A stretch of DNA of 64,000 nt from Salvator merianae (taxonomy: Eukaryota; Chordata; Lepidosauria; Squamata; Teiidae): positions 433,283 through 497,282 of the forward strand of contig QVOM02000023.1 of assembly GCA_003586115.2 (NCBI GenBank), written 5' to 3'. How positions within the stretch are numbered: position 1 is the first letter of the stretch; every line of letters starts with the position of its first letter. The position numbers and the translations under genes are program-made. This document shows positions 32,667 to 63,952 of this stretch, one piece after another. The notes below the pieces were generated by a model that was given only the letters and a program-made list of their open reading frames with translations, did no database searches and was not told the origin of the DNA.

Positions 32667-32880
32667 GGACTTCAAATGCGCACATGTTCTGAAGCAGGCA
32701 GCGTTGTCCTTCCGGGGGTGGGGGGGCACTGTGGGGATTGGTCCTCTGCCACACTTTTAACAGTCATGCCTAGATCGGTGTAGATGTACCTTGACCCTTG
32801 CGCTTAAGGGGAGGGCTCTAGCTGCCCAGTGTGGGTAGATGTTGTCATAAAACTGTGCCTGGCACACTTGCATTCAGACC

Positions 32881-32919
32881 CTGCCCTGCCCTGCCCTGCC
32901 CTGCCCTGCCCTGCCCTGC
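32881..32919 (+). repeat. (CTGCC)n short tandem repeat
   Basis: Almost eight perfect CTGCC units lie in the short interval between the convergent ZNF618 and nvd 3' ends. Confidence 0.95.
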
Positions 32920-33008: not shown

Positions 33009-33014
33009 TTTATT
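33009..33014 (-). promoter_or_regulatory. candidate nvd poly(A) signal
   Basis: TTTATT on the + strand is AATAAA on the - strand, about 700 nt past the nvd stop codon. It is the only perfect hexamer I noticed in that stretch. This makes the nvd 3' UTR about 0.7 kb and leaves roughly 320 bp between the two convergent genes. Confidence 0.45.
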
Positions 33015-33711: not shown

Positions 33712-33873
33712 TCACCACTCCAAAGTCTCCCTGTGTCTTTGGAAAGTCACGCTGTTCTTGCTGTAGAACTGTGAATACCACCGGCGATGCCTCTGGATGG
33801 CAGCGTCTTCTTTCACCAGCAGCGGTTTGGAGAGGTATTGCTTGTTATTCCAGATCATGATATCCCGCTCGAT
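33712..33873 (-). CDS. nvd: nvd exon 7 (C-terminus)
   Basis: The exon is 162 nt including TGA at 33714-33712, with acceptor aatgccacttgcag. It encodes residues 395-447, starting [20 protein letters not shown] and ending RHRETLEW. The [10 protein letters not shown] block matches the (E)D-I-x-I-W-x-x-K signature of sterol and KshA-like Rieske oxygenases. D398 is the expected third iron ligand. Confidence 0.92.
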
Positions 33874-36800
33874 CTGCAAGTGGCATTGGGGAGAAAGGCA
33901 GAGCAAATGACATCCTACTGGTCGCAGAAGCAGAATTAAAGTTGGGCTGGGCCCTGGGGGGAGGGGGAGCTGCAGGGCACCCCCCAGTTTCTGGCACTAA
34001 GAAACTTCACTTCTTAATTACTGGGGCCAGGCAAGAAGGTGGATGATGTCTTATGGGCTGCCCTGAGTCCTAGTATGCACAGTCCCGTGAAGAAATTCAA
34101 AACCATTGGCATTGCCCCAAACTTCCACGGGTCTCCTGAGCCCCTCCCCCTCCCCGCTGCTTCCAGGCCTTTCATCAAGCTCCGCTCCGCTGTTGGCTCC
34201 TCAGGGCATGGCTGTCCCCGCTCCTCCCCGGCCCTGAACCCCATGCAGAAGAGCCACCAAGGCGAGGGCTGGCTGCTTTCCCTCCCTTGGAAGGGTTCAG
34301 TCTGCCCAGCTCCCCCACCTGGACACTCTCCGCCCAGAGGATGAACTTGGGAATGAAGGCTGGGATGTTGTGCTGGTAGTAGACGCGATGAACCACGTGC
34401 TGCAGAAGCGGCTCCAGCGGCGTCACACTCTGCACGATGACGCCCCTGCCCAGGAACGGGTGCTTCAGCAGCAGGAAGACTAAGCCAGGCCCCACCTGCA
34501 TCACGGAACACGGGGATTCAGTTGGCACGACTGGGGTCCTGCCGCACGCTCCTTGACCGCGCACCATCGGATCTCCGCCACAGAGACATTTCCGTTGGGA
34601 GATGCCAGGCAGCAACCAAGGGCCTTCCAGCATGCGCTGTGCATATCTGCAAACCCCACCTGGGACAGTGAGGGATAGCAGCCTGCCTCCCCTTGCACGT
34701 TCCACAGTGATTCATACCTGCCTGGCTGAAACGGTCAGATCCAGCAAGGGAAAGTGCCTGCCGCAGAGCATGACTTTGTGCTTCACAAGCATCTGGGAGC
34801 AGTGAGTGTTTGGCTCCGGCTCAGGGTGCCACTCTGCCTGGGAAGGAGAGGAGGTTGGGTGGCTTCCTGGTCATGCACTGGCACGCATAAGTTGCTCCGC
34901 CTCCCCGCCTGATATGTTTCCTGCTGTTCCTCTGGCATCCTCAGGTGAAGGGAGCATTAAAATTCCAGGAATTCCTGCCTGACTGACTGCAGGTCATGTG
35001 AAGCCAGGTGGGCTGCTCCAGTCCTATTCCTCAGCTGACATCCTGGGGGCTCAGGCCTTATGCTCCGAGAACCTCTGCCTATTCCTCAGCTGACATTCTG
35101 GGGGCTGACAGGCTCTTCGCACAAGCGTGTCTTTTTGTTGCCCCACCTCAGCCAGCCGTTTCCCCCAGGGACTCCACTCTTGCCCTCGGCCTGCCCTGCG
35201 CATTAGCAGCCCAAAGCGGAAAATGCTGCCCAGTGAAATCCAGGCCAGGAGGTTGTAGAAAGGCCCAGAGTTCCTGGCCAGGCAGCCTGGAGCCATCTGG
35301 AGCAGGCACCAATCTTTGCCCAAACTGCCTCCTTACCTGCCAGTGGTGCTGGAAGAAGGTCCAGAAGGCCGAGCGTGTGAACCGCAGATCCACTCCACTC
35401 ATCAGCGAGGGGCCGTGGAGGAAAGAGAGGTGGGCAACATCAGCAGCATTTTCAGGGATCTCCTGGGAAGGCAAGAGGAGGAAGAGAGCGGTCACCCGCT
35501 GCCAGACTGAGGCCCAGTGCTCCTCCAGGAGTGCTGAGTAGTCCGGTGTCCCAAGGACTCAGGATAAGCAGGATAGGGCCACCAGCTTACAACAAGAAGG
35601 CTGTTGCGTGCCTGCTGGATTCCCCTGCCTCACCTGACGGCCCCTTCTCAGAAGCAGAATAGCACCAAATCTTCCCAGCTCCTGGAGGGATTTGGCAAAA
35701 GGAACCAGGACTGATGGTGCAAGAAGCCAGTAGAGGCCTGGTGTACGTGAACAGCTTCTTCTTCCCAAATCATCCTCCAAGCCAGCAGCCAGACTTGAGA
35801 GGCACTGCAAGTACCCCCACCTTTGCCAACCCTGCTGTCTGGATGCTGGTGAAAAATCCCTGCCCAAGCAAACTGTTTCCTGCAGCAAAGCGCCCGGGAA
35901 GGAAGACGCAGTACTGTACCTGGATATGCGCGTTGACAAAGTGTTCAGTTGTGCCACGGAGCACCCACTGGCAGGAGCGCAGCTCCTCCTGCTCTGGGAC
36001 ACACCAGGTGGGTTCGATGCTATCGCAGTGGTACCAGACGATTATCATACCGCCAGCCTCACACGATGGCCAGACTTTGATCTTCGCAAACTCCGGCACT
36101 GGTAAACGGAGGCAAAACAGGTCAGAAGCGGAATGGCCAGCCATGATCTTGGGCTGCCATAGGGAGCAGTGAACAAATGCATAATAGTGCAGCTTTTCTG
36201 TGACACTGGGGAGGAATTCCCCTGGCATCCTATAGCTTGGAAATGTCTTGTTAGCCTCCTGCAGGATCAGCCCCCAGAGGGATTTCCCTCCAAACAATGG
36301 TGGCCCTTAGCCATTCTGCAAAGCGCTCTCAGGAAATGGCAAGTTAGTTCCTGCCATGAATTAAAACTCTGTTTTGTCTTCTTTTTTCTTTTCACAAAAT
36401 GTTGTTTTAGGAATAGAAACAATGTTTAAACTGGACAATTACTTTTATAACTGTATTTTGTAAATTTGTTACATTCTCCATTAAAAAGAATTTGGGCTGC
36501 CACTAGGTTTGAAGTGCCAGCAATGATCCACCACTGTTAAGCCGAAAATGACTGGCAGTCTGCAAGCTCCGGCATCAAGCTGTCAACCAACGAAACAGTT
36601 CTCAGCCAGGCAGCGAGGTAAGGATCTGCCATGTTTCTTGTTTCCTGTAGTTTTGAGAACTTCGGTTAATTAAGGACCTCTAGTGACCAGAAGCATCTTG
36701 AACACAACTTCTTCTGCTCCAGGGAGGTGCGGGGGGCATGCCTTTGCCTCTCAAAGCCAAGGAACAGATGTGTTTCACATCCAAAGGGAAATGCAGATTG

Positions 36801-39800
36801 AAGTAACCGACTACGACTTCAGTCAAGTGGTAGACTATGTTCAGGGGAAGGGGAAAGCCAAAACAAGTCACCTTTTTCAGCATACGGGATCTTGAAGCAC
36901 TTGCCACTCTCTCCGTGGAACTGCCAGCCATGGAAAGGACATTCTATGCAGCTGTCCACCACACGGCCCCCAACTGCCAGGTTGGCACCAAGGTGTGGGC
37001 AGTAAGCGTCCACGACATGCACTTTCCCATCCAGGTCCCGAAAGACAGCAAACTGCTCACCTGGAGGTGAAGAGGAAAGCAGGAGGGTCTGAGCAGCCAA
37101 GGGGCTCAAGGGAGGATGCAGGCAGACCTCCTGTCATAAGAACCCAGAACGTAAGAGGAGCCCCGCTGGACAGGCCACAACAGATCTAGCTGGACATCCT
37201 GTCTCACACAGTGGCCCACAATGGATTCTGGATGTTCTCAAACAGAAGACAAAGGCAAAACTTTCCCCTGCTTTAAAGTCCCTTCAGATGGCCTCTGGAG
37301 GCCTCCTGCCTGTCTTTCCAACCTGGAGGCAGTACCTGGGCATCCATTCTAGTAGCCATTGATACACCTGACCTCCATGAATCTGTCGAATCCCTTCTTA
37401 AAGCTGTCCAGGCTGATGGCTGACACCACCTCTTCCAGTAGTGAATTCTATAGACGGATGACCCTGGGTGAAATTTCCTTCTCCTTGTCGGTCCTCACTC
37501 TCCCACCCATCACCTTCATAAAATGCCCCCTGGTCCTAGTGTTGTGTGATAGAGAAATAATTTTTCTCTATCCACCTTATCCATACCGTGCATGATCTTA
37601 AATGCATCAATCAGGTTCCCTCTTAAACACCATCTTTCAAGGCCGAAGAGGCCAAGCATCCTGCTCCAACAGGGTTCCTGCAGGTAACAGGTTGGGTCGC
37701 GGCCTCTCCGCTCCATGCCGAGGGGAAGCCAAGAGGAAGCCTGCAAGGGAGAAGGGATGTCACTGGCTTCATGAGGTTCCCATCAAGAGATTTGTTGTGA
37801 AAAGCTGCTGCCACCAAAGCAAGTACAGCACCTCAGGGGCAGTATAGCTCACAATGCCAAATGCTTTCCTAAGGAGGGCAGCTTTTGAGGAGATCCTTTT
37901 GTGAAGGCTCAGCTTGAAGGCACTACCTGGAAACCAAGGTGATCTTGGCTCTGGTCCATCAGGCAGGCTGCCAGGAGAGCCCTGGATGCTGCTTTCTTCT
38001 CTTGGACAGCTTCTTGTTGCCCATCCCCTAAGCAGAGGCCTTACGCATTCAAAGCAGGGGTCTCCTTAAGTACTGCTGGCCCTGCTGCTTCTGTACTCCA
38101 TGGCAGATGGGAACTGGGAAGGAGAATGTTAAACATGCCCGTGGGCAGTGCCAAGCAAGCAGCTGCCTCATTCTGGAGGACTAGCAGCCACTAGGTGGCA
38201 GCCCTGTCCCAGCCTAGTTGCTGGCAGGAGGCAGTTAGTTTCACTTGTAAGGATGGAGCAGGACAAAGTTTCCTTTTCTGCTGGGGTAGGAGAATGCTGC
38301 AACCTCAGCATCTCCCTAAGAACAAAAAACAGGGAGAAAGGAAACCCAAGACACAGAACCTTGAGAAAAAAGACATCTAAGGTGCCAATGCCCACCGTGA
38401 GCCAATCCTTTATCCCAGTGCAGGCTGCCTCTCGGTACAGCGCCAAAGCACCATGCCAGAGAAATCAAAAGGCAAAAGAGAGATGGAAGCAGACAGGCTA
38501 GACCACAAAGGGCTTTACAGCAGGTCCTGGCCCGGCCCATCAGTTTGTGCAGCTCCAATTGCAGCCTGGCCACGTGTGCTCAGCCTGCCAGCCCCTCTGG
38601 CACCATTCACGGCCCTCGTTAGCTGAGGTGAACGAAGCCATTCACTGAGAGCACCTGGCACAAGTTCTCTGGGGCATTTACAAGCAGGGCAGCAGCCACA
38701 GGCGCCCTCCCGTGGGATTCTCTCCATTGCCTTTCCAAGAGGATCTCTGGGTGTGATACACTGTGTAAATCATCAGGTGCTGTACTGCCCTGCAGCTAGG
38801 GTGGAAGGATGCCAGGTATGTTCTTGGTGCTCAGAGATGAGTACTGGAGGTGCCTGTGGGTACAGCTGGCACTGCTAAAGTTCTGGGTTAGGAGACTTGG
38901 TGGGCAGATTCTTTGGGGTGGCAACATCCACCCTGGACTACAGCAGGCAAAGGGCAGGATCACTGCTTTGGGGAAAACAGGAACACTTGCGCTTTCTTCC
39001 AGGGGTCGAAGATGGGCAGCTCCTTCTGTGAGTCCCAGGATGACACCAAAGACATGAGCTTTTAAGCCATGCTGTCCAAGGAGCCTGGGCTCTCACGCTC
39101 GTTTGCCTGTTTCAGAATCATAGGTACACTCCTGAGCCAGGCATTGCCATTTCATGACCACCTAAAAGAAACTGTGCCGTGCCAAGGGCATTTGGATATT
39201 TTTACATCACACTGTGAAACCTTGCTTGGGGCAAATGGGTTTACATGCAGAAAAGAACAAGCAGTCTACCTCAGATCTGGCAGAAAGGGGCGGTCTTCAG
39301 AAGCAAAGGGGCCATGCTTGCAGAACACGCATGGTAACTATGCGGGCACCTCCACGAGGACTGCCCACTAAGCCAGGCTGAGCATCAACACTTTTCTTAA
39401 CCGGTATTGTCCAGGGATAGCTCAGCCACCGTCCCCACTCTTCCTGGCCATCTCCAAGCAAGCAATCTAGCAAGAATGCACATTTTGGCTTGTCTTCATC
39501 AGCAGAAGCAAGAAGCAGGAAAGAAGCCAGAGGCTTCTCACTGAAGATTGATATCATGCCTTCCCACCAAATTCCAAGATTCATGTTAGGGCAACACCTT
39601 AATTAGGCAAATCAAAATTCATCAGTAGAGCATGACAGCTGAAGTCCTACATTCTCTCCCACGTTTTTTGAAAAGGCAGATTTTTGTTCGCTCTTCCCGG
39701 CAAAGTAGTTTTTTTGAAATGACGGCTGTGTGGTACCTGGAGAAGGCAGGTTAATGCCCTCCATTCTGGCACCAAGACCAAATCTTGCCTGGGGAAAGCC

Positions 39801-42800
39801 GCTCTGACCCCTCGTTTTGTGCCCTCAGGACCAGGGACTCAAAAACCAACAAACAGGCCAAACTTCACAAGCACCACAACAAGCCAGTGCCCATTAAGAT
39901 GATGGCACAGGTCACCCTGAGAGCAGTGGTCCCATCCCTGGGGGAAGAGAATGCAGATGAGTGGGATGCCTTTGGAGGGCGGAAGGAAGCACCGCAAAAA
40001 AGCGAGACTCCTCGGCTGGAGGCAGCATCATTTTTATCTGTTTTCATTCTGCTTTTACGCATTTTAATTACTGCCACCTTTAGAGCTCAGGGTACTGGAT
40101 GGGATATAAAAGCAATAAATTTGCTTCCTTTTGTGTAGCCCAGAGTGCCACCTCACTTCTGGAGAGAGGGGATGCACTTCACGCAGTGCAAGGGAGAAAG
40201 AGATTATCATTGATCATTCTGCAGGGAGAAAATGTTTAAATAAAGAAACAGCTCATAGTGAGCTTCTGGTAAGGTTGCATTCGCACTTACCTGCATGGCG
40301 GCAGCCATCTTGCATGCGATGTGCCCATTGTGCATGCATGATCACGTAATCACACATGCATGATGGGGCAATCTGGCCTGACTGGGCCCACATGATCACC
40401 CAATTGAACCTGTGACACCCAGATCAGGCCTGCAATGCCGGATGGAACTGCACAATGCCCAATCCGGCATTCTGGTCCAGATTGGGCACACACCCAATGG
40501 TCACCGCGGCAGTGGCCAGCAAGCAGCTGGCTGCTGCCATGGAGACTGGGAGACCCACACAGTGCGCAGGCATGATGGGCTGATTGCACCTGCACGATGG
40601 GCCGATCATTGTAGTGCCATTGGGCATACAGATTGGGGCACTGCGCGGCCTCATCATGTAGGCCCAATGGTGCTGCTGCAATCAGCCCAGCATACGTGCA
40701 CACTACATGGGCCTACCGGTTGCCATGGCAGCAGCCAGCAGCTGCAGTGGCAAGGACTGGGCACGGCTACTGGCATTCGTACGTGCAAACACCAGTAACT
40801 GGCTTCAGGTAGGTTTGTAGGCCCTGTAGTGCAGACATTGTCTGTACATTGGGGTCTATTCCACCTTAGAATTATCCCATTCTTAGGTGGAAAGTGCAAA
40901 CAGGCCCTTGGTGACTGACTTGGGAGATTTTAACTATCCGGACATTTGTTGGGAATCTCTCTCTGGCAAAAGTCACGGGTCCAATAAATTCTTATCCTCT
41001 CTGGTAGATAACTTCATTTTCCAAAGGATGGAGAAAAAAACAAGGGGGTCTGCTATCTTGGACCTAATTCTTACCAACAGGGAGGAAATGGTTGAGGAAG
41101 TAAGGGTGACTGGGACCCTGTTTGGCAGTGACCATGCTATCATTGAGTTTTGGATAACAAAAAGAGGAAGATCTGAGAGGACTCAGACTTCAAGGTTAGA
41201 CTTCAGAGGAGCAGATTTTGATGGACTCAGAAGGAGGGTAGGAAGGATCCATTGGCTGGATGTCTTAAAGGACAGAAATGTCCAGGAAGGATGGGAAATT
41301 TTGAGAAAGGAGATTCTAGAGGCACAATCTTTAACAATTCCTAAAAGAATGGCAAGCATCTAAAGAGACCAGGGTGGATGAACCCTGAACTTAATAACTT
41401 GCTAAAAAGAAAAAAAGAAATGTTTAAAAAATTCAAAGAGGGGGACATATCAAAAGAAGAATATAATGCAATCTGCAGAAACTGCAGGATAAGTGTCAGA
41501 AAGGCTAAAGCTAAAAATGAATTGAGGATTGCAAGAGAGGCCAAAAACAATAAAAAAGGGTTTGGGGGATATGTCAGAAGCAAAAGAAAAGTCAAAGAAG
41601 CTATAGGACCTTTACAGAATGAGAAGGGTGATTTAGTCAAAAACGACATTCAGAAGGCAGAACTTCTGAACTCCTATTTTACATCTGTTTTCTCTCAGAA
41701 AGGAAATGAAACATCAGTTGGCCTTCACTGTGCTGTTGAGGGAATAAGAGAATCAAGGCTCTGTATGGACAAGGAGAAGGTGAGGGAACACTTAGCAAAC
41801 TTAAATGTATTCAAGTCTCCAGGCCCAGATGAATTACATCCTAGGGTGCTGAAGGAATTAGCTGATATAATTGCTGAACCACTCTCTGTGATATTTGAGA
41901 ACTCATGGAAAACAGGAGAAGTCCCAGAAGACTGGAGAAGGGCAAATGTTGTACCTATCTTTAAAAAAGAAAAGAAGGCTGACCCAGGTAACTACAGGCC
42001 TGTGAGCCTGACTTCAATACCAGGCAAGATACTTGAACAAATCATTAAACAGCATATATGGGAGCACTTGGATGGGAATGCAGTAATTAACCAAAGCCAA
42101 CATGGATTTGTAACAAGCAAGTCATGCCAGACTAATCTCATTTCCTTTATGACAAAATTACTGGATGGATTGATCAAGGAAAGGCTGTGGACATAGTATA
42201 TCTTGACTTTAGCAAAGCATTTGACAAGGTGTCTCATACTATACTTATTGAAAAAATGATCAAATATGGGATTGACAGGACAACTGTTAGGTGGATTCAT
42301 AACTGGCTTGGTGATCGTACTCAAAGAGTGGTCATAAATGGCTTCACATCCGATTGGAAGACTGTCTCGAGTGGGGTACCGCAAGGCTCTGTCTTGGGCC
42401 CATTGCTGTTCAACATTTTTATAAACGATCTGGATGAAGGAGTCGAGGGGACGCTGATCAGATTTGCAGATGACACAAAGCTAGGAGGGGTTGCTAACAC
42501 TAGGGAGGAGAAGGAGAGGATTCAAAAGGATTTGGACAAGCTTGAACAGTGGGCTGAAACTAATAGAATGACATTTAACAGGGAGAAATGCAAAGTTTTA
42601 CATCTGGGTAAGAAAAATGACAATATCCAATACAGAATGGGAGGAATCTCGCTGAGCAGCAGCACATGTGAAAAGGATCTGGGTGTACTAGTAGATCACA
42701 GATTAAACATGAGTCAACAGTGTGATGCAGCTGCAAAAAAGGCAAACACCATCCTGGGGTGTATCAAGAGGAGCATAGAGTCTAGATCATGAGAAGTAAT

Positions 42801-45800
42801 TATCCCTCTTTACTCTTCCTTGGTCAGACCTCATCTGGAGTATTGTGTCCAGTTCTGGGCACCCCAGTTTAAAAAAGACATTGACAAACTGGAACAAGTT
42901 CAGAGAAGGGCGACCAAAATGGTGAGTGGTCTGCAAACCATGTCCTACAAGGAACGATTAAAGGACCTAGGAATGTTTAGCCTGCAGAAGAGAAGACTGA
43001 GAGGAGACATGATAGCTGTTTTCAAGTATCTGAAGGGCCGTCACAGTGCAGAAGGATTGGCCCTATTCTCACTTGCACAAGAAGGAAGGACTAGAAACAA
43101 TGGGATGAAACTTCAAGGGAGGAGATACAGGCTAGATATTAGGAAAAACTTTCTGACCGTAAGGGCAATCAGTCATTGGAACAGGTTGCCACAGGAGGTG
43201 GTAGGCTCTCCTTCCCTGGAGGTCTTCAAGGAGAGGCTGGACAGTTATCTGTCTGGGATGCTTTAGTGAATCCTGCATTGAGCAGGGGCTTGGACTCGAT
43301 GACCCTGGAGGTCCCTTCCAACTCTATGATTCTATGATTCTAAATTTAATTTTTAAATTTAAACCTAAAAATGCCTTCTCGACTCCAGTTCCGTATCTGG
43401 GAAGTGGTGAGAAGGGACAATACTGCACAGTCTCTGTCTCCGTGGTGCCATTTGGCATTTTGGGAACAGGGGCCCTTGTGGGTCATGAGGCTACAAGGGG
43501 CAGGCGAACCATACGCACCACTCTGTGCATGATTCTCCCTGGTGTAAAGGAGAGGTAAGTCTCTTTAAATTAATAAAGAATCTCTGCTACCCTTGTATCC
43601 ACTTCCCTGGGGAAGGGGGAGGCTCCAGGCACCAAGACCTTCTGCAAGAACTGAAACACTGCAACCCTGCATCAAGGTGACACGGATGCCGCTCCCTGTG
43701 CATAGTTTCAGGGCTCTTCTAAGGTGAACAGCAAAACCTGCAGCTAAGCAGAAGCCCAAGGAGGAGGGAATCATCGCCAGTGTTTGGCTTGGCTAAGCCA
43801 AGGCAACTCCTCCTTTGCTCACGGCTGTGCCTGGCTAGGCGCCACCTGGGAGGGCTCTTCACACCTGCACCCCACTGGAAGTAAAAGAGCCAAGCAGCTC
43901 CTCAGGGCCCAGCAAGGCCCATGGCTCGCCAGCATCACTGTTCCAGCCTAGCTCTGCCCGGCACTTTCAAGAGGCCTTGGGCTGCAATTCAGGCCAGTTT
44001 TGCTTATGCCCCTTTTCTCTACTAGCCGTGCACAAAGGAAGAAATGAAACAAAGGAATTCCACAGAATCCCCAAAGATGTGAAAATATAAAATGAGCAAA
44101 AAAGTCTTTAAGGGAGCAAGAAGGATTCTGAAGCAAACTCAGCTGATCTGATGCCACTTCAATACTCCCTCAGAGTAAAATATATACTTATGTTTATTTA
44201 TGAATCACCTTTCTTTAACAGGAAAAAACAAGGAGATATGCAAAATAACAATAAACCCTAAGCAGCCATATTTAAAGCAAAGTATTAAACACATTAGACA
44301 AAATGCTAAAATCATCACTAAAACATCATTCAAATAATTAAAATAGCCAGTGCAGTGCCATGTAAGGAGTACAGGCATACCCTCCCTCTGCCTTACACTC
44401 AAGGTAAATGTCAGGGAGAACAGCCACGTTTTTACTTGGTGCCTAAAGGAAGTCAAATGAGGCATCAGATGAGCCTTCCTGGGAAGTTACTGCATAATCC
44501 AGAAGCCACTACCAAAACATCCATATGGCAGCAGAGGAGGGACACTGAGAAGGACCTCAGAACTCCATCACAAGGTCTGGACTTCTTTGTATGGGAAGAG
44601 ACGTTTGGACAGGGACCAAGTCCCAAGCAATATAGAGCCAAATTCCTATGATGACAGTGGACCTCCGCAGGAAAGGGTCGGAGCCTTGGTGCTGTTGCTG
44701 AGAAGAAGTGTCCAAGCAGCTTTTAGAAAAAGGGACCATGATGAATCCTCCTGGCATGACCTCTGCTGATGTTCTGTGCAAGAGTGTTGCCGCCCTTCCT
44801 CCCTGGCGTTTGGAGGGGAGGCAGAAGAAGAGCACAGTCATCCCCTGCCCTGAATGGCTTCATACCTGTGAGGAACTGCCTCAGCACAAAAGGACCAAAT
44901 TATCACCCCATTTATGTGACGATTAATGTGAAAACCATTTAGAGATGCTTTCTCCTCATCCCTCTGTCTCTGAAGACATGCCAAAGTTATCAAACAATAA
45001 TGCACTGAAAATGGCATTGACATCTTCCTCGCTGGTGAGTTAAAGCACAAAGCACAATTTCAGTCATTGTGGACTGAGTCCTTTGGAGAAGAGATTCCAA
45101 TCAATTGATCAGGCCCAAAGCAAACCTGCCCAAGCTCCAGATCCCTCTGCCAGCTTCTCAGTGGCTCAGGATGGAAACGCCTGGGGGCATTTTGCTCTCA
45201 CCCAAGCACTGCACCAGCAGGGGGACCATCAAGGGCATGCGTGGGAAGAGTTTTCTGGTTTCCCCCACGCAGACCCTTGCTTCTCCCCCAGCACACCTGA
45301 GCAGCACACCTGAGCATGCAGGCTGCTGCCGAGCAGGCGGGAAAGAAAAGCACCTCCCTCCACACTCACGCCTGGCAAGGTGCTAGGAGACGAGAGCATC
45401 CCCTTTGGCAGCGCCACCCTGGGCAGGAGATCAAGCTTTGGAGCGACTTGTATGAACAGGGCCGAGCATAACTGTTACCCCCCTCCCCCACCTGCAATTT
45501 TCAAGACAACTTCCTTCTTCGCTTGGGCTACAGATGACTAAACGTGGTTTGGGGGGAAGAGGGAGGCTAGTAAGGATTTGTAGCTTGTCCAGGATCTGGC
45601 TGCAGCTTGTCCAGGATCTGGCTGCTGCTTCCAATCAATTTATGGCCCAAAGCAGACCCCAGCTCCCATTAGATGAAGTCCTTTCCTAACTTTGCAAACC
45701 TTCAGCCCTAAAAAGAACCCAAATCCTGAAATGTTATCTGAAAAGGCGGTTTAAGGAGAAGCCCCATGGAAGGCAAACCATCCTCTGGCTATTTGTCCTT

Positions 45801-48800
45801 CCAAAAAGGAGAAACTGTTGCAAATAAAGGCTGTACAAGCAGCCTGGAAAGCAGAGCGTTGCTGGTTTGATCCCCAGCCTCTCCTTGGAAGTAGGTAACG
45901 GCAAACCACCTCCATATCTCTGCCAAGAAAACTGCACAGAGGTACTCATTCAGTCATGACTCAGTGGTACCCAGCACCACCAACAGGGAAGATCTTATGC
46001 CGGCTGTTTGCCTGTGATGCCAGTACATGATAAGCTACGCCTTAAGGGTTTGGCAGCAGGCATCCTCTGACGGAACACAGAACACAGAAGGGCTGCATTC
46101 GCACCATTTTGGAAACAAACCTCGGGGAGAAGCAGGTCATTTTGATATGCTCCCACCTTACAGGAAAGGCCAGCTGCTTTAGGTGTGGCTTGTCAGATAC
46201 GGCACGCAGTTCTGCTAGCTCTGAGAAAGAGCAGCTGGCACAGACCTCAGCCTGCCTGGGCTTCAGTTTCTCCCCTTTGTTTCCTTACTAGAAAGCGTTG
46301 CCATACATGGCAAGCGAAGTCTCAGGATGCAGCCCCAGGGAAGCGCTGCAGGTCTCTGTGTTCCCTAGAAAGAGGCAAAAGGCACCCGGGCCACTTAGCG
46401 TTTCTCAGCCATCTCTTTGGCTCCTGCTGAAAGGGGCTTCTCCTTCAGTATCAGCTGAAGAGGCTTCAGTGTGGGCTGAAACGGGCCGTCACAGTCCTGC
46501 TCAGCACTTACAAATGCTTGCGGGGGGCCGACTTTAAAGCTTGCCCGGCAGAAAGGAACACTGCTTATTGTCAAACCCGGCGCTGGAGGTCCCATTTTGA
46601 CTCCCAGGCCCTGCAGCTGGCGCTCTCCTTCCTGATCTCAATTTTTTGAGGCAGCAGGGCCAGAAGAAACTTGGAAGAGCACCTTATGGCAGGGCTGCAT
46701 GAAGCCTGGAGAGGAGACGGTGTCAAGCAAGTGGGAAAAGCCTGAGGAATGTGGTGCCCTTATGACCTCCCTGGCCAGATTTACTAGCTGGGGGAGCAGA
46801 GGAAGCTCATCTTGCCCAACTGGACTTCAAGAAGCTCCCTGCAAGCCAAGCAGGTTTTCCACTTAAAAGCTGCTCAGCCACCCACGCCCAGTCCAGGCAC
46901 TTTCCATTGGAAAATAAAAGCAGTGAGGGCCTCTCTCCATTGCACTCAGACTGTTTGGCATGTGGTGTTTCTAAGTGAAATGCCTCAGCATCCTGCAACA
47001 GATGTGGGTGATGCTTGAGAAATGGCAGCTGACGGGGTGCTCCAAACTTGGTTTTAACATGTATTGGTCAAAGCAAGGTTCGAAGAAGAGCCTGGAAGGA
47101 GCCAGGGGCTCTTTAGATCCGACTGAACCCATTACCGGATTCAAACAAACAGATCCTCTGTGTGGCAGGAACAGGGCTTGGGCCTCCTCCCCAGGAATGA
47201 CCACAGCCACCCCCAGTCTCTCTCCGGGAGCATCAAAGTGCTGACCATCATCTGACCCAGTTTGCAACAGAAAGAAAGACCGCTTCGTCTTAACAGGGCA
47301 CAAAAGTGATGGTTCTCTCTCCCTTCATATCCATTCAAAATCGAATTACCTGGTGCTGTGTTGTAGCAAAGCTTTCTGAAGATATAAGGGAATTTGGTTA
47401 AAATTCTTTCCTTGCCCCATTGTTCCCTTAATGTTTATTTTACATCCTTTTGTAGGTGGGAAGCAGTTTATGTTGTGTACTGATGGTGGAATTTCCCCCA
47501 ATAAAGTTAAGAAAGAAAATGGTGGAAGAAAAAGGAATTTCAGGAGACAGGAGCAATACCTTTTCTGTACAAAATCAGTTATGGGATGGAAAAGGGCTCG
47601 CAAGAAGGCATTGTGGGACACCTGAAGTATTCTGTTTGTCAGACACAGTTGACGGCAGCAACACTTGATGTGCAAAAAGGCAAAGGCACTCCCAAGTCAC
47701 AGCCATGGAAAAATCTTCTCCAGATTTTGGGAAGCACCTGGCACTCTGCTAGAATCCTGCACCCAGTTCTGGTGCCTCACTTTGGGAAGGGGTTGGGCAA
47801 GCTGGGGGGATGCTCAAAGCAAAAGGTGGTGGAAACCAAGCCCTGGGAGGAGAGATGAAGAGAAAGAGACTGAGGAGGGAGCTGAGGTACTTTCTTCAAG
47901 GAGGCCACAGAGAAGAGAGACAAGACCTTTTCTTCCCTATGGTCCTAGAACGCAGGATGAGGCTCGGGGAGCAAGAGGGCATATCTGGGTTGAATGTCAG
48001 AAAAATCCCCTTGCAGGAAGAGCAGCTCAGCCATGGAAGTGATTCCCTAGAGAGGAGGGGGCATTGTGTTCCTTGGATGTGCTGAGGCCGGATGGTCACC
48101 CAGTGGCCTCCGGGGTCCCTTCTGAAATGGGCGGGGACTCTGACTTATACCCAGGGTGGAGGTAAGAAGCATCTGAACTCTGGCTAAGCTGAGTTATCCC
48201 AGAAACACACAGCTACACAAAAGCCACTACTGCCCCCAAACTAATAGAAACCAGGCGAGAATTGAAGGGGAAGTTCTAGAGGAGAAAGCAGCTGTGCCCC
48301 TCTTGTGCCCTGAGGACTTGCCCAGGTGGCACCAAAGGGCATGCTGGGAGTTCCTGGCCTTTCCTGAATCCCAGGGAAAGATCCAGGACCTGCTGCTTGG
48401 CTCAGCTGAGACCCTCATGGCGCACGGTTTAAGTGTTGCAGCTTCCCTCGGCCCCCATCCCTTCCCATTTGGCCCCACACTCACTTCCGCTGCAGGGATC
48501 CTGAGCCTTAGAAGACCTGCCCTGCCCCACTGGCCCTGCACCCTCCTTCTGCAGCAGTCCAGGTGGCCCACTCACCCCTCCCTTTTAGTAGCCCATCGAG
48601 CCACAGCAGTGTGAGCAACACCAAGAACGCCCAGCTGAACGGCTGCTTCTCCACTCACACAGCTGCACTCTGCGGGGGGGGGGAGGTCATCCCCTGGAAA
48701 ATACAGCAACGCCCTTCCTGTCCCCCCTTCTGCTGCTTCAGTAGGTCAGAGGAGAATTTCATCCACTGCAGCAGAGACCAGAAACCTCCCTCTGGGCTGG

Positions 48801-51800
48801 TATCAAGGCATTCAGAACATTACCCCACACTGAAAGAGGCACAAGCCCCAGATCCCAGCATACGTGGTAGTGAAGAACTCTGGCTGCCTCCGAGGTAACT
48901 GACGGCTCCTCCCCTTCCCCCTGGCGACCCTTTCCCTAGCCAGGAGGGCCGAGCAGCACCCCGCGCACTGGAGGCTTTGCGCATCTCCTCTGGGCTCCCT
49001 GCCAGAGAGGCAAACGGAGAACAGGCCTGCAGAAGGGGGACAAAGGCCTCTGGCACCGGCTGCTCACCGCTGGCAGGCTGCTGCTCTCCCCAACCAGCTT
49101 TTCTTGCTCTGCCACGTGGGGCAAGAAGTAGAGAAAAAGTCACCGAAGCTGTGAATTCCTGCCCTCGGGAGCGGCAGCTGCCAGCCATGCGCTCCCAGAG
49201 GAGGCCAACACAAGGAAAGAGGCCACAAGGAGACAGGAAGGGAGCAGAACAGCTCTGCGCACCCTCCGGCTGCAGGGTGCATGGCTGGTGCCTAAAAGCG
49301 AGGCGACGCCAGGCCCGTAGCCCTGGGTAGGGGATTCCCCTGCGTCCGTCGGCCTCATCGACGCCCAGATGGGACGCGGCCGCACTAACTACTGCTCCCA
49401 AGCACTACATTAAGGAAGCAAAACACTTTTGCCCACGCCAACACACAGGGGCCCTTGCCAAGCAGCCCCACCCAACGCAGTGTGTCCAGCGTGTGGCGGA
49501 AGGAGACACGTGCCGGCCACAAAGCCCAGGTGTGTCTACCTGGGCTGCTGCAAGAGCTGTCAGGAAGCACATGCCGGATTGTGGACCAGGGTGGATTCTG
49601 CAGCGCACCAGAAGGGCAGAAGGGCAGGGACACCGTCAGTCCAGGCAGGAGATTGGGTGGTTGGCCAAGACACCCTATATGCAAGCTTCTCTGGAAGCCG
49701 CTTTCTGGCTTCAGGCAGCGTATAAATAAGTCACAGGAGGACAGAAAAGAGACGTACAACACCACAGGGCACAGCACCAGCCTGGGTCAGGTGGCTCCTA
49801 GAAGGGCCGCCTTCCATAGAAGAGGTGCCCCCATTGCCCGGAGGGGGTCCAGCAGCAACCCCAAGCAAAGCGACCCAGACCTACGCTGTCGCTGAACCAG
49901 TCTCATCCAGATCTTCTCTTAGGCTGATGGAGCTCTGAGAAGAAGCGGAAGGAAGCCTGCAGCAAACCCTTCGCATTGCCTCCCTTTCTTACACACGGGC
50001 TGATCATGCCAGACAGGCATTCTAGCCGCTCCCGCCGAGTGAAACCAAGTGATTCTGCCCGCTTTACTCTCCCAAGCCCCATCCACAGGATTTCAGTTCC
50101 CGAGCGACTCTGGCAGCCCTTATCCCTTCCCAAGGGGCTAGCCGCTGTTTGTCGCAGGCAACCCTTTTCTGGCTTGCCCAGTTAAGAGGAACAGCAGTGT
50201 GCAAACGCAAGCCAGCAAGACCAGAAACCCTTCCCAGACTCACACAGAAGAGGCGTGCTGTAGAGGGCACCTCTTTCCCTTGAGAGGAACCCACTTCTGG
50301 TCCTTCCCCATCCGGGCAAATGTCCCAAGGAGCAGCACAGCCCAAGAGCCAGCAGGCACCTTCTCTTGGGGTGTGGGCTTCTCCGTTTCTGCCCCAAGGA
50401 AGGACAGAATGGTCCCGTCCACCCGTTACAGGTTTCCACACTCCCACCGTACGCCAGAGGGGCCAGCACAGGGAGCAGCTGGCTCTCTACAAAGGAACAT
50501 GGTCTCGTAAGAGCTTCAGACAAGCTCTGGACAGAAATGTCTACCAAGGTGGCTTGGATTCAGTAACTCTATGCAAGCATTGAGTTCATACCCAAGAACT
50601 TTAAGGCTGCAGCCTTCACTCAAATGCACGGCCAACGATTGAGATTCCCTTAGTTCAGTTGGTCAGCTTTCACTGAATGCAAGACACTTACAATGCCACC
50701 CCATGGACCCCTGCAATTTTATTTATTCAGTTTTATATTCCACCTTAACACTTGGAACTCCCTTAGGCAAAGTGCCAGTTCTAATACACCTTCACCTTCC
50801 ATCCTGCTACCAGACGAAATAGGGATGCCAGCCAACACCAGCCTTTCTTCAAAATCATATGCCCAGGAGGGCGGACTCAAGACACAGCTGCACATTTGGG
50901 GCAACAATCGAAACTTCAGTGAACAGAATCATCTGCAAAGGCTGTTTGACTTAATTGTGGCTTCCTGGGATTGGGGCAGCAAAGCAGCTTCAGTCCTGGT
51001 CTAGGTCTGTGGGATGGATGTGGGACCTTCTACAGAACATGCCAGAGCTGACCTGAGGAAGCTTCCCACTTAAAAAATTGGCTGCTAAAGGGAAACCTTG
51101 ACTGCTTTCAAAGAGCTCCACTGTAAATGGGCAAGCTCAGATAAACTTTTAGCAAAACGCAAGTCCTACCGGTAACAGCAGGCCTTGTGTGACCTTGCAA
51201 AGGCATTTCCAAGACTACCGGAATCAAAAAGTGCTGAGCTGACTGCAGGCTGACTGCAGGCAGGACTGCCTGCCGTTCTCAGCTTGGAAGAATACACCGG
51301 ATGCCTCTGCCTAGGAGGAGGCAGCAGGGTGGTCTAAATCTTGAGGTTTCTTGTAGGCCCCAGAGCACCTGCCTCACCCCGGGGGGGTTAAAAATCTTGG
51401 CGCTTGGGCTGCCGCTGTGCAACGGACAACGTCATGCAAAGAGAAGCCGCCCGCCTGGAACAAGCGCCTGGGCTGGACCAAGAGGCCGCCTGTCGAGGCC
51501 GTGCCCTGTGGCAGGCAGAAAGGATCCAGCTAGCAGGCATCCGGGGCTCCTGCATTCAGCGCTCGTCATAAACTCAGCTCTGATAGAAAACCACAGAAGT
51601 GGCAAAATATAAATCTTTGAATGTTTGCTTGTTTGTTTCCCCCATCCTTGAGTTTAATTGTGTTGTTATATAACTGCTATGATTTTAGCTGTTCTTCTTC
51701 TCCATGTTTTGTAAAACGCTGTGAGATTATATTTTAATGGGAAGCAGTATATAAACACTTAATAAATAAAGGTTGCCCTACAGCACCCCCTAAACTGAAC

Positions 51801-53832
51801 AAACTTCTGATTTAATGGACAGATATGTGGTTCAGGCTGGACGTCCACTGGTAGAGCAAAAGCACTGCCGGTGGGTATAATGCCAGGCTGACTATCCCAC
51901 CCAGCGGTGTCTCCCAGTGGTGGCCCCAGGCCCCCTGAAAACCGTTGCCTTTCCCCTGGCCTTCAGGTCGACGGCTGCCCCCTCCAAGGTATTTGCACGT
52001 GGCCGGGAGCAACACTTATGCTAAGGGACAGCAGCAGCGAAGGACCCCCCCAAGTAGCCGTGGCACTGCTTTGTGGAGTTCCCACACTCTGAGGGGCCTC
52101 CTCTGGAGTCAGTGCCCTGGGATCTTCGCACCTGAGACTGCTTTCAGGTGCAAGGTTGGCAGTGGAGCAGAGCCTCTTGCTGATGACTGACGATGTGGCT
52201 CTGAAAGGGGCAACTTTTGTTCACTTGCTCACACACACACAAGGAGACACCTAATGAGGCAGGAAGGCAGCAGTCCAAGACAGAGCCGAAGGTCCATTTT
52301 GTGAAGGGAAAGGTGGCCTGTGACTCTCGCTCAGCAAGCGCCTGGCATGGCAGGAAACCCCACTCAGCCCAAGGCCTGCAGGATGCCAGCCGCAAGGGCT
52401 GTGGGCCAGCTGGAGAGACCCTCTGGCCCAGGCGGAAGCGCCCTGGGCACCTGGCAAGAGGGAGCCAAGGGATGGAGGTCAAGCTCCTCTGCCTTCCTGA
52501 CGCAGCTGGTTTAAAACGCCACAGGGGAGACTCCAAGTTCCCTGCCAGCGCTTCTCTGCCCTGCTTGCCAGAAAGAGGACCCTGGAAGGGGGGCGGGCTG
52601 CCCCCGCGTGGCCCAGGGCCCTTCTTCTCAGAGCCCTGCAAAGGAGGGCGGAAGCGTGAGGGCAGCGGTGATGAAGCGAACTAAAGGCTCCCACCACGAA
52701 CAGGCTCGGAGAATGTCTGCTTCGGGCCACGCGCAGGAATCCGAGAAACGGTTAGTACTAGGGCGGAGGCTGCTCCGGGCAACGGAAAGACCAGGAAGGC
52801 TGGCGGGGGAGGGCTGTGTTCCTCGTCGCCCCGAGAAAGGGAGAAGGGGGCGGATTTGAGCCTCGAAGAGGCAACTTTCCATTTGGCCACAAAGAGGATG
52901 ATCAGCAGCCGGCCGTGGGGTTAGGGGCTGCGTCCAGACCCTCTCGCGAGCAGCAGAACACGTTGGTGGACGCCACCCTGGAGACCCTTGGTTTAAAACA
53001 GCCCCCCCTGCACATGGCTGCTGCTCTTTTCCATGATGACAGAATCTGAGCATCCATTTCGGTGCCTTAACCCAGCAGCATCGCGACAGGAAAAGCCCAT
53101 GGCGCCGCGGCCACGTTTTATGCCGCTCGGCTGCGTTTCCGCCACACAGACTTCGTTGCCGCCGCTACGGGAAGAGTAGAAAAGCTGAAGGAAGAGAATT
53201 CAGGGCAGCCAGGTCTCGGCAGGAGTCGCTGCAGCGTCGAGGCGGCAAAGCAGGACTGAACACCCCGCAGCGGGAAACGTAACGCGTCCTCGACTGTAGA
53301 AAACTAGTGCTTCAGGGAGAGAGGCCCTCCGACGAAAGAATTTGAGCCCGAGAGGCACGAGGCTCTCCCCGCCGCGACTCACTGGCCTTCCGTGGGCGCT
53401 CTGCCCATGCCTAGGAGTCCCCTTCTCACTTTCTCACTCACCCAGTGCCGCCACGCCGCGTACCTCTCCGCGGGCCAGTTGAGCGGAGTCCAGCAGGCGA
53501 AACCAGCCGTTCGGGTAGACCGGGGGCATCTGGCCCTTTCGCCGGCTCCTGCGCACTCTATGTGCGGTCTGGGCGCGACTCCAGCCGGCCTCGGGCACGT
53601 AGCCCACCCGCTCGGGGGGACAGAATCGCCGCAGCGGCCGCTGCAGTAATACTAGCAGCAGCAGCAGCAGGGCCGCCAGGGTGGCGCCCGCGGGCCCCAG
53701 GGTGAAGGCCCCCGCGGCGGCAGCGGCGGCTCCACCGAGCAGCCCGGCCAGGGCCCAGCCGAGGAGATCCATCAAGCGACGCGTCCCAGGTCCCACCCGC
53801 CCGGGGGGGGGGCGCGTCGGCCGCGCGCTCAT
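33712..53832 (-). CDS. nvd: Cholesterol 7-desaturase nvd-like (Neverland/DAF-36 Rieske oxygenase), complete
   Basis: The exons in transcript order on the - strand are 53832-53442, 37060-36872, 36098-35920, 35462-35337, 34837-34718, 34495-34319 and 33873-33712. They total 1,344 nt, or 447 residues plus TGA, with every junction GT/AG and no frame error. Residues about 21-65 are hydrophobic (one or two membrane segments). The Rieske [2Fe-2S] motif is C151-P-H153 ... C171-P-F-H174. The mononuclear iron site is E257-X3-D261-X2-H264-X4-H269, with D398 in [10 protein letters not shown] as likely carboxylate ligand. The length and motif order are those of the Neverland/DAF-36 family, which oxidises cholesterol to 7-dehydrocholesterol and feeds ecdysteroid or dafachronic acid synthesis in arthropods and nematodes. 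Non-mammalian vertebrates are known to carry orthologues of unclear role. An alternative start is M21 at 53772. Function here is by family, not tested. Confidence 0.9.
34319..34495 (-). CDS. nvd: nvd exon 6
   Basis: The exon is 177 nt, phase 0-0, with acceptor ccgtgatgcag and donor GTGGGG (a permissible but G-rich donor). It encodes residues 336-394, [20 protein letters not shown], then [17 protein letters not shown] and [17 protein letters not shown]. The longer open frame through 34,705 is intron read-through. Confidence 0.9.
34718..34837 (-). CDS. nvd: nvd exon 5
   Basis: The exon is 120 nt, phase 0-0, with acceptor ctctccttcccag and donor GTATGA. It encodes residues 296-335, [20 protein letters not shown] then [20 protein letters not shown], part of the catalytic beta-sheet fold. 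Confidence 0.9.
35337..35462 (-). CDS. nvd: nvd exon 4 (mononuclear iron site)
   Basis: The exon is 126 nt, phase 0-0, with acceptor ctcttgccttcccag and donor GTAAGG. It encodes residues 254-295, starting [17 protein letters not shown]. The pattern E257-X3-D261-X2-H264-X4-H269 supplies the bridging Asp and the two iron-binding His residues. Confidence 0.93.
35920..36098 (-). CDS. nvd: nvd exon 3
   Basis: The exon is 179 nt, from phase 1 to phase 0, with acceptor cctccgtttaccag and donor GTACAG. It encodes residues 194-253: [20 protein letters not shown] then VWYHCD, ending in [13 protein letters not shown]. It links the Rieske domain to the catalytic domain. The KxWP ... VWYH pattern is typical of the Neverland family. 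Confidence 0.9.
36872..37060 (-). CDS. nvd: nvd exon 2 (Rieske [2Fe-2S] domain)
   Basis: This 189-nt exon is phase 1-1, with acceptor cttcacctccag and donor GTGACT on the - strand. It encodes residues 131-193. The cluster ligands are visible as [16 protein letters not shown] and [19 protein letters not shown], that is C-X-H-X17-C-X2-H. The whole iron-sulphur fold lies in one symmetric exon. Confidence 0.95.
37140..37700 (-). mobile_element. CR1/L3-type LINE 3' fragment
   Basis: The segment contains the widely shared amniote CR1/L3 3' text (aagaaccc ... agctggacatcctgtctcac ... tctgtcgaatcccttcttaa ... atgatcttaaatgcatcaat). The - strand reads [20 protein letters not shown], the degenerate ORF2 end. 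It sits in nvd intron 1, 80 bp from exon 2. Confidence 0.7.
40025..40135 (+). mobile_element. L2-type 3' end fragment
   Basis: A T-rich segment followed by tttagagctcagggtactgg and atgggatataaaagcaataa, the common L2 3' end arrangement. It lies in nvd intron 1. Confidence 0.5.
40275..40905. repeat. CATG-rich, GC-rich repeat segment, possible DNA element
   Basis: About 630 bp have a composition quite unlike the flanks. There are many CATG, TGCATGCA and GGGC words, and repeated phrases such as gcatgatgggg and gcatgatgggctgattgcac. There is an internal inverted pair at 40,523-40,542 and 40,722-40,745 (ctggctgctgccatgg against ccatggcagcagccag). The ends, ttgcattcgcacttacct on the left and aggtggaaagtgcaaacagg on the right, are partly inverse, which suggests degenerate terminal inverted repeats. 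No coding capacity was seen. The superfamily is unknown. Confidence 0.4.
40908..43342 (+). mobile_element. CR1 LINE, nearly complete ORF2 with few breaks
   Basis: The element starts inside the endonuclease ([20 protein letters not shown] ... [10 protein letters not shown]), continues through the reverse transcriptase and reaches the CR1 3' end with (ATTCTATG)n at 43,325-43,342. RT motifs are intact: [38 protein letters not shown]2 is broken by a frameshift near 41,365, another near 42,170-42,190, and TGA at 42,790-42,792, where the copy at 10.6 kb has CGA. The endonuclease N-terminus and ORF1 are missing (5' truncation). It lies in nvd intron 1, antisense to the gene. It appears relatively young. 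Confidence 0.93.
44180..44470 (-). mobile_element. L2-type 3' UTR fragment
   Basis: The text tttatttatgaatcaccttt, then A-rich text with aaaatagccagtgcagtgcc resembles the 60,765-60,990 3' UTR of the L2 copy in this window. It is degenerate and lies in nvd intron 1. Confidence 0.4.
45826..45975 (+). mobile_element. SINE-like element with tRNA B box
   Basis: The text gctggtttgatccccagcct resembles an RNA polymerase III B box (GGTTTGATCCCC). It is preceded by a degenerate gcagagcg and followed by ggcaaaccacctccatatct and tctgccaagaaaact, phrases common in reptile tRNA-derived SINEs. The head with box A is missing or diverged. It lies in nvd intron 1. Confidence 0.45.
47660..48135 (+). mobile_element. 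Divergent CR1/L3-type LINE 3' fragment
   Basis: Reading the + strand gives a degenerate CR1 ORF2 end: [17 protein letters not shown], then [28 protein letters not shown] in line with the [19 protein letters not shown] block of the intact copies. It ends in a cggatggtcacccagtggcc tail. It is older than the 40.9 kb CR1 and lies in nvd intron 1. Confidence 0.5.
51620..51775 (+). mobile_element. L2-type 3' end fragment
   Basis: A T-rich lead, then gtaaaacgctgtgagattat and gggaagcagtatataaacac with an aataaataaa tail, the typical L2 3' end. It lies in nvd intron 1. Confidence 0.55.
53442..53832 (-). CDS. nvd: nvd exon 1 (N-terminal membrane anchor)
   Basis: The exon runs from the ATG at 53832-53830 to donor GTGAGT (53441-53436) and is 391 nt, ending in phase 1. 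It encodes a basic, Pro-rich start, then [14 protein letters not shown] and a Leu/Ala-rich hydrophobic run (residues about 21-65). A basic segment and [20 protein letters not shown] follow, the typical lead-in to the Rieske domain. Two in-frame ATGs are possible: M1 has T at -3, and M21 (53772) has T at -3 but G at +4. Neither context is strong. M21 would place the anchor at the very N-terminus and give 427 residues. Confidence 0.85.
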
Positions 53833-53842
53833 ATAGCCTCCT

Positions 53843-53872
53843 GGGGCGGGGCGGGGCGGGGCGGGGCGGGGC
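53843..53872 (-). promoter_or_regulatory. (GGGGC)6 GC-box array upstream of nvd
   Basis: Six tandem GGGGC units make overlapping Sp1/KLF-type GC boxes, only 11 nt upstream of the first nvd ATG. With the array this close, transcription may start either upstream of it (placing it in the 5' UTR) or inside exon 1, in which case M21 would be the real start. Confidence 0.7.
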
Positions 53873-54724
53873 TGGACAGAGCGCGCAGGCAGGTAGCAGA
53901 GAGCGACTCAGAGGGCGAGCGAGGGCGCTTTGGAGCACGTGCAGAGAGCGTAGACAGGGTGCAGGCAGAGAGGCTGCGCTCCCGGACCGACAGGGCGGGC
54001 GGCGAAAGTCCGTCGGCAGAGGAGGGCGCGGCGGGGAGCAGCGCTGCAAAGGGCTGGGTGGGAGTTTGGGGGCCGGTCCTCCTGCCCACGCCGGGGGTCA
54101 GGCGGGAGATACCCCCCAAAGGCTTCCGGGAGCCCACCCTGTCTGTTCCGCGTGGCTGCTTCTCGTGGCAGGGACTTGCCTGCCGCTCCTGGTGCTCACT
54201 TTGCGAGTCCCCCCCCCCGCTCAGCTGAGGCGGCTCACGACCTGCCACGCGAATCTCTTTTTCGTCCCCTTTTCTCTTCCTCTCTTACACACGCACGCAC
54301 GGAATTACGAACATCTTGTACATGAAAATTAAACCACCAATAGTCCAACCGTAGAAGTTTTAATTATAATGAGAAGCATGCCCAGCTCCCACCTGCCAGG
54401 CCATTTATGAAGCCTCGCTTCCCTGTTGTAGTGGAGGCCTTGCGCAGTTCAACAAAACTGTCAGCTCTGCCCTGCAGGGACACCCAGGAGACACAGGCCA
54501 GACTGGAGAGCTCAGGGCAAAAGTGGCCCACTGCAGACCACTCCAACAGCCTTGCCAAGAAAAGTCCCTGGAGAAGCATCCAGGAAAGGCAACATGACGC
54601 AAGTTGAGCCCTGCCAGGTCAGAAGGTGCCCAGTACATTGCTGGGGGAGAGCGGGGGGCGAGAGGAAGCCATTCCAGAAAGAGTGATGTGCCTGGGCCAC
54701 AGCCAAAGGGATGCTCAGCTGTGG
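53873..54724. other. Upstream flank of nvd
   Basis: The CpG-rich part ends near 54,240 and ordinary sequence follows to the BovB start. No second gene was recognised on the opposite strand. The 89-codon + strand ORF at 53,959 is probably GC-driven. Confidence 0.5.
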
Positions 54725-59734: not shown

Positions 59735-60750
59735 AATTTTTTCCTACATCAGATGGCCAAGCTCTCAGGAAAACAGGACATAGTGATTATGGGAGATTTT
59801 AACGACCTGGACATTTGGTGGGAATCTCTCTTAGGCAAAAGTCATAGGCCCAATAAATCCTTACCCTCTCTTGCAGATAACTTCATCTGCCAAAAGATGG
59901 AGGAAAAAACAAGGGGATCTGCCATCTTGGACCTAATTCTTACCAACAGGGAGGAAATGGTGGAGGAAGTACGGGTGACTGGGACCCCGGGAGGCAGTGA
60001 CCATGCTATCATTGAATTTTTGATAGCAAAGAGAGGAAGACCTGAGAGGACTCAGACTTCAAGGTGGGGGGGGACTTAAGAAGAGCAGATTTTGATGGAC
60101 TCAGAAGGAGGGTAGGGACAGAAATGTCTAAGAAGGGTGGGAAATTTTGCGAAAGGAGATTCTGGAGGCACAATCTTTAACAATTCCTAAAAGAAGAAAG
60201 AATGGGAAGCAGCTAAGAAGACCAGGGTGGATGAACCCAGAACTTAATAAGTTATTAAGCTAAAAAGAAAAAAAAAGAAAAATGTTTAAAAAATTGAAGG
60301 AGAAGGACATATCTAAAGAAGAATATAATGCAATCTGCAGGAACTGCAGGATAAGTGTCAGAAAGGCGAAAGCTAAAAATGAATTGAGGATTGCAAGAGA
60401 GGCCAAAATCAATAAAAAGGTATGTAAGAAGCAAAAGAAAAGTCAAAGAAGCTACAGGACCTTTACAGGACGAGAAGGGTGAAATGGTCAAAAGTGACAT
60501 TGAGAAGGCAGAATTTCTGAACTCCTATTTTGCATCTGTCTTCTCTCAGAAAGGAAATGAAACATCAGTTGGCCTTCACTGTGCTGTTGAGGGAATAAGA
60601 GAAACAAGGCTCTGTATGGACAAGGAGAAGGTGAGGGAACATTTAGCTAACTTAAATGAATTCAAGTCTCCAGGCCCAGATGAATTACATCCTAGGGTGC
60701 TGAAGGAATTAGCAGATATAATTGCTGAACCACTCTGTGGGATCTTTGAA
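59735..60750 (+). mobile_element. CR1 LINE, interrupted copy (left part)
   Basis: The element begins in the endonuclease ([28 protein letters not shown]) and follows the same text as the 40.9 kb copy through [20 protein letters not shown] and [15 protein letters not shown]. It then stops abruptly at an inserted L2 3' tail. There are frame breaks near 60,070 and 60,410. The text resumes only at 63,953, with about 850 bp of CR1 missing in between. Confidence 0.9.

Positions 60751-63952
<3,202 letters not shown>

Follow-up and report, generated by a model that had tools for sequence, protein, structure and literature searches.

An intact Neverland/DAF-36 orthologue between ZNF618 and GRIN1 in the genome of the tegu Salvator merianae

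The window analyzed here is a 64,000-nucleotide stretch of the genome of the tegu Salvator merianae (assembly GCA_003586115.2, contig QVOM02000023.1, forward-strand positions 433,283 to 497,282), and positions are given within it unless stated otherwise. Its minus strand carries a gene of the Neverland/DAF-36 family of cholesterol 7-desaturases, with the genes for zinc finger protein 618 (ZNF618) and NMDA receptor subunit 1 (GRIN1) on either side (Table 1). Seven exons spanning 33712-53772 are spliced without frame error to a single terminal stop, and all six introns (16381, 773, 457, 499, 222 and 445 bases, from intron 1 to intron 6) have GT...AG ends. At the same base composition an open frame across 426 codons has a chance of P ~2e-6, and both shifted frames run into stops in six of the seven exons; in exon 6, one of the two does. 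The product matches the Pfam domains Rieske (E 4.3e-23) and KshA_C (E 3.1e-28), both above cut-off and in this order, and the best database protein is UniRef A0A8D0AUF5, a 'cholesterol 7-desaturase' of S. merianae with 100% identity over the aligned residues. The Pfam matches, the identity to the UniRef entry and the low probability together show that this is not a chance frame. The gene is real and intact.

The initial annotation of this DNA, made from the letters alone, had described seven exons, no frame error and 447 codons. The exons and the frame stand, while the length is more likely 427 codons. Translation from the ATG at 53772 gives a product of 427 aa, and the 447 codons result from an in-frame ATG at 53832, 60 bases further 5'. 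The sequence context is weak at both. In the alignment, the 15 other vertebrate rows, the public tegu model aside, are all empty in the 20 additional N-terminal columns, although P0082 among them has an unusual N-terminus and carries little weight for the start codon. Because none of these rows reaches into the extension, 53772 is the likelier start, and translation probably begins there, 20 codons inside the 53832 start. The public tegu model (P0001, 445 aa) starts at 53832 and lacks the residues AE that open exon 5. Two residues are present at this place in all 15 other aligned rows, and the junction that includes AE is therefore preferred. Six perfect GGGGC repeats at 53843-53872, just 5' of the upstream ATG, likely lie in the 5' untranslated region; further 5-base arrays occur at 32879-32919 (CCCTG) and at 60747-60776. 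Rfam at its gathering threshold and ARAGORN found no RNA gene in the window.

The Rieske and mononuclear-iron signatures that had been claimed are both present, as C131/H133/C151/H154 and E237/D241/H244/H249. The ligands C131, H133, C151, H154, D241, H244 and H249 are invariant in the 51 aligned proteins, and E237 is found in 50 of the 51. The motifs of the Neverland family are C-X-H-X16-17-C-X2-H and E/D-X3-D-X2-H-X4-H (PMC7609953). The tegu signatures match both, with a Rieske spacing of 17. Structure prediction places N-terminal helices at model residues 17-45 and 47-64, with a predicted local distance difference test (pLDDT) score of 62-74 for the block at residues 21-50 and of at least 90 at residues 51-70.

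Relatives of the tegu protein are widespread. A first protein search gave 1433 proteins at E <= 1e-3, the best 120 of which include squamates, tuatara, turtles, birds, amphibians, coelacanth, lungfish, ray-finned fishes and sharks. Among 120 proteins listed of the 126 from a second search, set to longer proteins, are lamprey, molluscs, annelids, echinoderms, tunicates, insects, crustaceans and chelicerates, together with a nematode, sponges, Capsaspora and a choanoflagellate. Orthologue annotations span lizards, snakes, tuatara, turtles, birds, amphibians, fishes, sharks and lamprey. Mammals are named in none of the rows among the best 120 of 1433 or the 120 of 126 (long proteins only), which is weak evidence for absence. 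The proposed absence of the family from mammals is in line with three papers: PMC4967820 (2016) gives the family as occurring in vertebrates, mammals excepted, PMC7425431 describes mammalian cells as being without a cholesterol 7-desaturase, and PMC10608315 likewise has the Neverland family absent from mammals.

An initial, quickly built tree (62 rows: 51 aligned proteins and 11 bacterial frames) placed the tegu protein among the squamates, with the bacterial outgroup split across branches and a eukaryotic row, P0224, grouped with bacteria; the nematode row was placed in the Neverland clade in this tree only. In a second tree of 53 rows, nine long-branch or doubtful rows (P0214, P0218, P0219, P0223, P0224, P0230, L005, L009 and L012) were dropped, and the 44 Neverland rows separate from the 9 bacterial KshA-like rows at 100/99, with the tegu on the Neverland side. 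Support is 100/100 for vertebrates, 100/99 for squamates, 99/92 for tegu with Hemicordylus and 83/95, an unstarred node, for lamprey with shark, and several deep invertebrate branches are weakly resolved. The sea urchin NVD_HEMPU (P0200), Ciona (P0180) and the insects lie within the Neverland clade. The tegu protein is nested in the vertebrate part of this clade, not with bacterial KshA, and the description of the gene as a complete vertebrate Neverland/DAF-36 orthologue is borne out by its position and by its conservation across vertebrates. The observation is not a novel one: the gene, and vertebrate Neverland as a kind, are already known, since UniRef holds the tegu protein and vertebrate members have been published, those of Anolis, Podarcis, Pseudonaja and Xenopus being named in PMC7609953. 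The initial annotation is partly supported overall. What is gained here is a clean gene model that corrects the public one in two places, a test of clade membership and the ZNF618-GRIN1 locus.

Table 1. Features of the tegu Neverland gene, its neighbours and the sterol-reductase loci
Feature	Position	Strand	Basis or remark
Exon 1	53442..53772	-	Coding from conserved ATG (MDLLGW); hydrophobic N-terminal segment; helices predicted
20 extra in-frame codons to upstream ATG (MSARP)	53773..53832	-	Used in public model; absent from other aligned rows
Exon 2, bulk of Rieske domain	36872..37060	-	Splice join
Exon 3	35920..36098	-	Splice join
Exon 4, mononuclear-iron site	35337..35462	-	Splice join
Exon 5, starts GCAGAG (AE)	34718..34837	-	Splice join and alignment; AE missing in public tegu model
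Exon 6	34319..34495	-	Splice join
Exon 7, including stop codon	33712..33873	-	Sole KshA_C match found genome-wide
Rieske [2Fe-2S] signature, C131-X-H133-X17-C151-X2-H154	36930..37001	-	Position computed from exon table
Non-haem Fe(II) signature, E237-X3-D241-X2-H244-X4-H249	35415..35453	-	Position computed from exon table
CpG-rich region surrounding exon 1, promoter-like	52501..54500	.	GC 0.60-0.74; CpG observed/expected 0.68-0.91
Nearest AATAAA 3' of stop, 697 bases away	33009..33014	-	Candidate polyadenylation signal only
ZNF618 large C-terminal exon (hAT-transposase-derived), convergent with Neverland gene	27335..28903	+	
C2H2 finger of ZNF618	24727-24789	+	
First GRIN1 exons	L084 6541-7140, L085 5155-5538 (contig C592, right of window)	+	
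PF01222 locus	C1682:35117624-35123521		Genome search
PF01222 locus	C113:28095264-28109623		Genome search
PF01222 locus	C900:95898-99173		Genome search

The gene lies on a contig of 12.9 Mb (C592), flanked by ZNF618 and GRIN1. The frame of the large ZNF618 exon has 91-95% identity to the 120 listed of 906 matches, those with names being zinc finger protein 618 and marsupials occurring among them, and it also matches the Hermes transposase (PDB E 3.7e-21). Two frames on the plus strand, starting about 6.7 kb right of the window, correspond to NMDA receptor subunit 1, so that GRIN1 and the Neverland gene stand head-to-head, ~17 kb apart. In four of five comparable species (Pseudonaja, Pogona, Tiliqua and Pituophis) the Neverland and ZNF618 matches lie on equally long contigs, implying that the two genes are probably on one contig in these squamates; Natator differs. 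A carp gene model (P0220) in which a partial Neverland is fused to NMDA receptor domains suggests that the gene adjoins grin1 in carp too. From the linkage with ZNF618 in other species and the carp fusion it follows that the locus is probably old rather than recently arrived. The ZNF618-GRIN1 interval is a place where one could look for a mammalian remnant. Public models fusing Neverland with neighbours or repeats (P0220, P0123, P0146, P0188 and P0203) have as partners an NMDA receptor, a lipase with a TFIIIC subunit, a leucine-rich-repeat protein, a RING protein and a reverse transcriptase; they are probably annotation errors, some of which contain linkage clues.

Contamination of the assembly, bacterial or other, would be an alternative source of a KshA-like gene, and it is exceedingly improbable. 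Six spliceosomal-type introns, a long interspersed nuclear element (LINE) in intron 1, the vertebrate neighbours on a long contig and the low identity of the bacterial relatives (at most 34% in the best segment for the 80 of 573 confirmed matches) all speak against it, nothing was found in its favour, and it was rejected on these grounds. The LINE remains lie at 40887-43263 (+), where the frame 41345-42193 matches Pfam RVT_1 (E 5e-8), and a long peptide, matched by eye, links them to frames at 10639-11385 (-) and at L084 1206-1640. A second, distinct non-long-terminal-repeat element at 61230-63119 (-) has an open frame of 630 codons (RVT_1 E 3.8e-33) and is perhaps comparatively young, since that frame is still open.

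With considerable confidence, the tegu gene can be regarded as an intact Neverland/DAF-36 orthologue encoding a Rieske oxygenase, predicted to be membrane-anchored, that likely converts cholesterol to 7-dehydrocholesterol (7-DHC). The reaction is likely the one that family membership assigns to it. Deuterostome members are said to have been found by Yoshiyama-Yanagawa in 2011 to carry out the 7,8-dehydrogenation of cholesterol. In Rieske oxygenases electrons pass from a reductase to the [2Fe-2S] cluster and on to the mononuclear iron, which activates O2. By analogy with the family, the N-terminal hydrophobic helix of the tegu enzyme would anchor it in the endoplasmic reticulum and a reductase would hand electrons to the cluster. 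The cluster would reduce the mononuclear iron via D241, as in other Rieske oxygenases, and the iron would activate O2 and take the C7 and C8 hydrogens from cholesterol to leave a 7,8 double bond.

Several observations weigh against this assignment. The Neverland of Drosophila pachea accepts lathosterol and not cholesterol (PMC8863297), so that membership in the clade does not fix the substrate. Of five family enzymes expressed in melanoma cells, silkworm NVD alone reduced the growth of both lines, which the zebrafish and Xenopus enzymes failed to do (PMC7425431, section 5, which gives no 7-DHC output for these two). The genome searches discussed below were run exon by exon, with only the best candidates scored. 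Finally, the tegu protein deviates at four positions where 90% or more of 19 vertebrate rows agree (R51C, D162S, G200S and F375I), none of them a ligand. The enzyme could thus belong to the same clade and yet do other chemistry, accepting a different sterol, such as lathosterol, an oxysterol or a precursor of bile acids or hormones, or hydroxylating instead of desaturating. The lathosterol preference in D. pachea and the failure of the zebrafish and frog enzymes to mimic silkworm NVD point in this direction, as does the fact that KshA, the nearest solved fold, is a C9 hydroxylase. However, the metal ligands and a large part of the catalytic domain are retained in the vertebrate rows, and a different chemistry is considered distinctly unlikely.

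The four substitutions specific to the tegu, at positions that hardly vary in the other vertebrates, might also be taken to mark a decaying or silent gene. The seven exons are nevertheless free of stops, frameshifts and broken splice sites, and the end branch of the tegu (0.23) is close to that of its nearest row, Hemicordylus (0.20); the end branches in Pogona, gecko, Podarcis, Anolis and snake are longer (0.28-0.42). In addition, 6 of the 120 listed rows come only from 'lgn' contigs of 1.4-4.7 kb, on which orthologue frames of nearly full length cover 88-99% of the query, and these contigs resemble spliced transcripts from other vertebrates. Decay is very improbable, and the pseudogene reading was rejected in view of the intact frame and splice sites and the ordinary branch length.

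In the tegu genome (2.05 Gb), the exon-by-exon search with KshA_C gave one match among the candidates scored, exon 7 of the Neverland gene, and no second copy. The Rieske search gave three matches, one being the Neverland gene and the other two presumably the mitochondrial complex III Rieske protein and an AIFM3-like exon. A second Neverland copy was rejected because no further Neverland-like exon is among the genome matches found. The sterol-reductase family PF01222 is represented by three loci with 15 exon matches. We take the C-terminal exon of the C1682 locus to be that of DHCR7, while a PDB search with this exon names delta(14)-sterol reductases only; the remaining loci are presumably LBR and TM7SF2. 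With a DHCR7-like gene in the genome, a cycle between cholesterol and 7-DHC is possible, and both directions are probably encoded in the tegu. Since the enzyme of the DHCR7-like gene runs in reverse, tissues having both it and Neverland would set the local ratio of cholesterol to 7-DHC.

In arthropods and nematodes, 7-DHC leads to ecdysteroids or dafachronic acids. Vertebrates are not known to make either, and they form 7-DHC on the route to cholesterol. The most likely use of the vertebrate enzyme would be a local supply of 7-DHC, for which the vitamin D3 precursor of sun-exposed skin is one candidate. The silkworm enzyme raises 7-DHC in leaves of Nicotiana benthamiana, and UV-B then gives vitamin D3 (PMC11606407). 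These leaves make their own cholesterol, suggesting that Neverland can work against a 7-reductase. A vitamin D role of tegu Neverland is a hypothesis. Non-mammalian vertebrates may use Neverland as a shunt from cholesterol to 7-DHC, against DHCR7, that refills the vitamin D3 precursor of the skin, and mammals, having lost the enzyme and kept neighbours such as ZNF618, would rely on a throttled DHCR7 or on diet. This scenario is tentative and rather unlikely as a whole. Neither a vertebrate Neverland feeding vitamin D nor literature on a lizard cholesterol 7-desaturase was found in the titles and abstract openings of the open-licence matches listed, the full texts of which may mention the former.

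The same reaction could serve a purpose other than vitamin D, with 7-DHC itself working as a membrane or antioxidant sterol, or giving rise to a steroid signal comparable to the nematode dafachronic acids, and this has a somewhat less than even chance of being correct. The gene is retained in sharks, lamprey, frogs and fishes, some of which live under little ultraviolet light, and vertebrates already form 7-DHC during cholesterol synthesis. In killifish embryos, vitamin D3 analogues and a dafachronic acid each elicit a response (PMC10821554, a paper on rotifers that juxtaposes DAF-36, 7-DHC, vitamin D3 and killifish diapause), which hints at a possible use of Neverland products in signalling. 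On the other side stands the formation of vitamin D3 by UV-B from the 7-DHC accumulated through Neverland in leaves. If the vertebrate enzyme acts like its relatives, birds, reptiles, amphibians and fishes would have a second route to the vitamin D3 precursor that mammals are without, and such a route, if true, would bear on the differing vitamin D supply across animal groups.

Among known systems, the vertebrate Nvd or 'DAF36 desaturase' proteins of Xenopus laevis, Anolis, Podarcis and Pseudonaja are orthologous to the tegu protein and alike in domains and ligands, whereas the N-terminal hydrophobic segment is divergent and four residues are specific to the tegu; identity to the other 119 proteins listed of the best 120 of 1433 is 58-78%. 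Insect Neverland, the DAF-36 type of Plectus and sea urchin NVD_HEMPU share the family and its signatures with the tegu at 36-49% identity. Bacterial KshA, the oxygenase of 3-ketosteroid 9alpha-hydroxylase, has the same succession of Rieske and KshA_C domains and provides the nearest solved fold, while its reaction differs and its identity is 23-28% in fold alignments, one set of which starts at model residue 98 or later, past the N-terminal helices.

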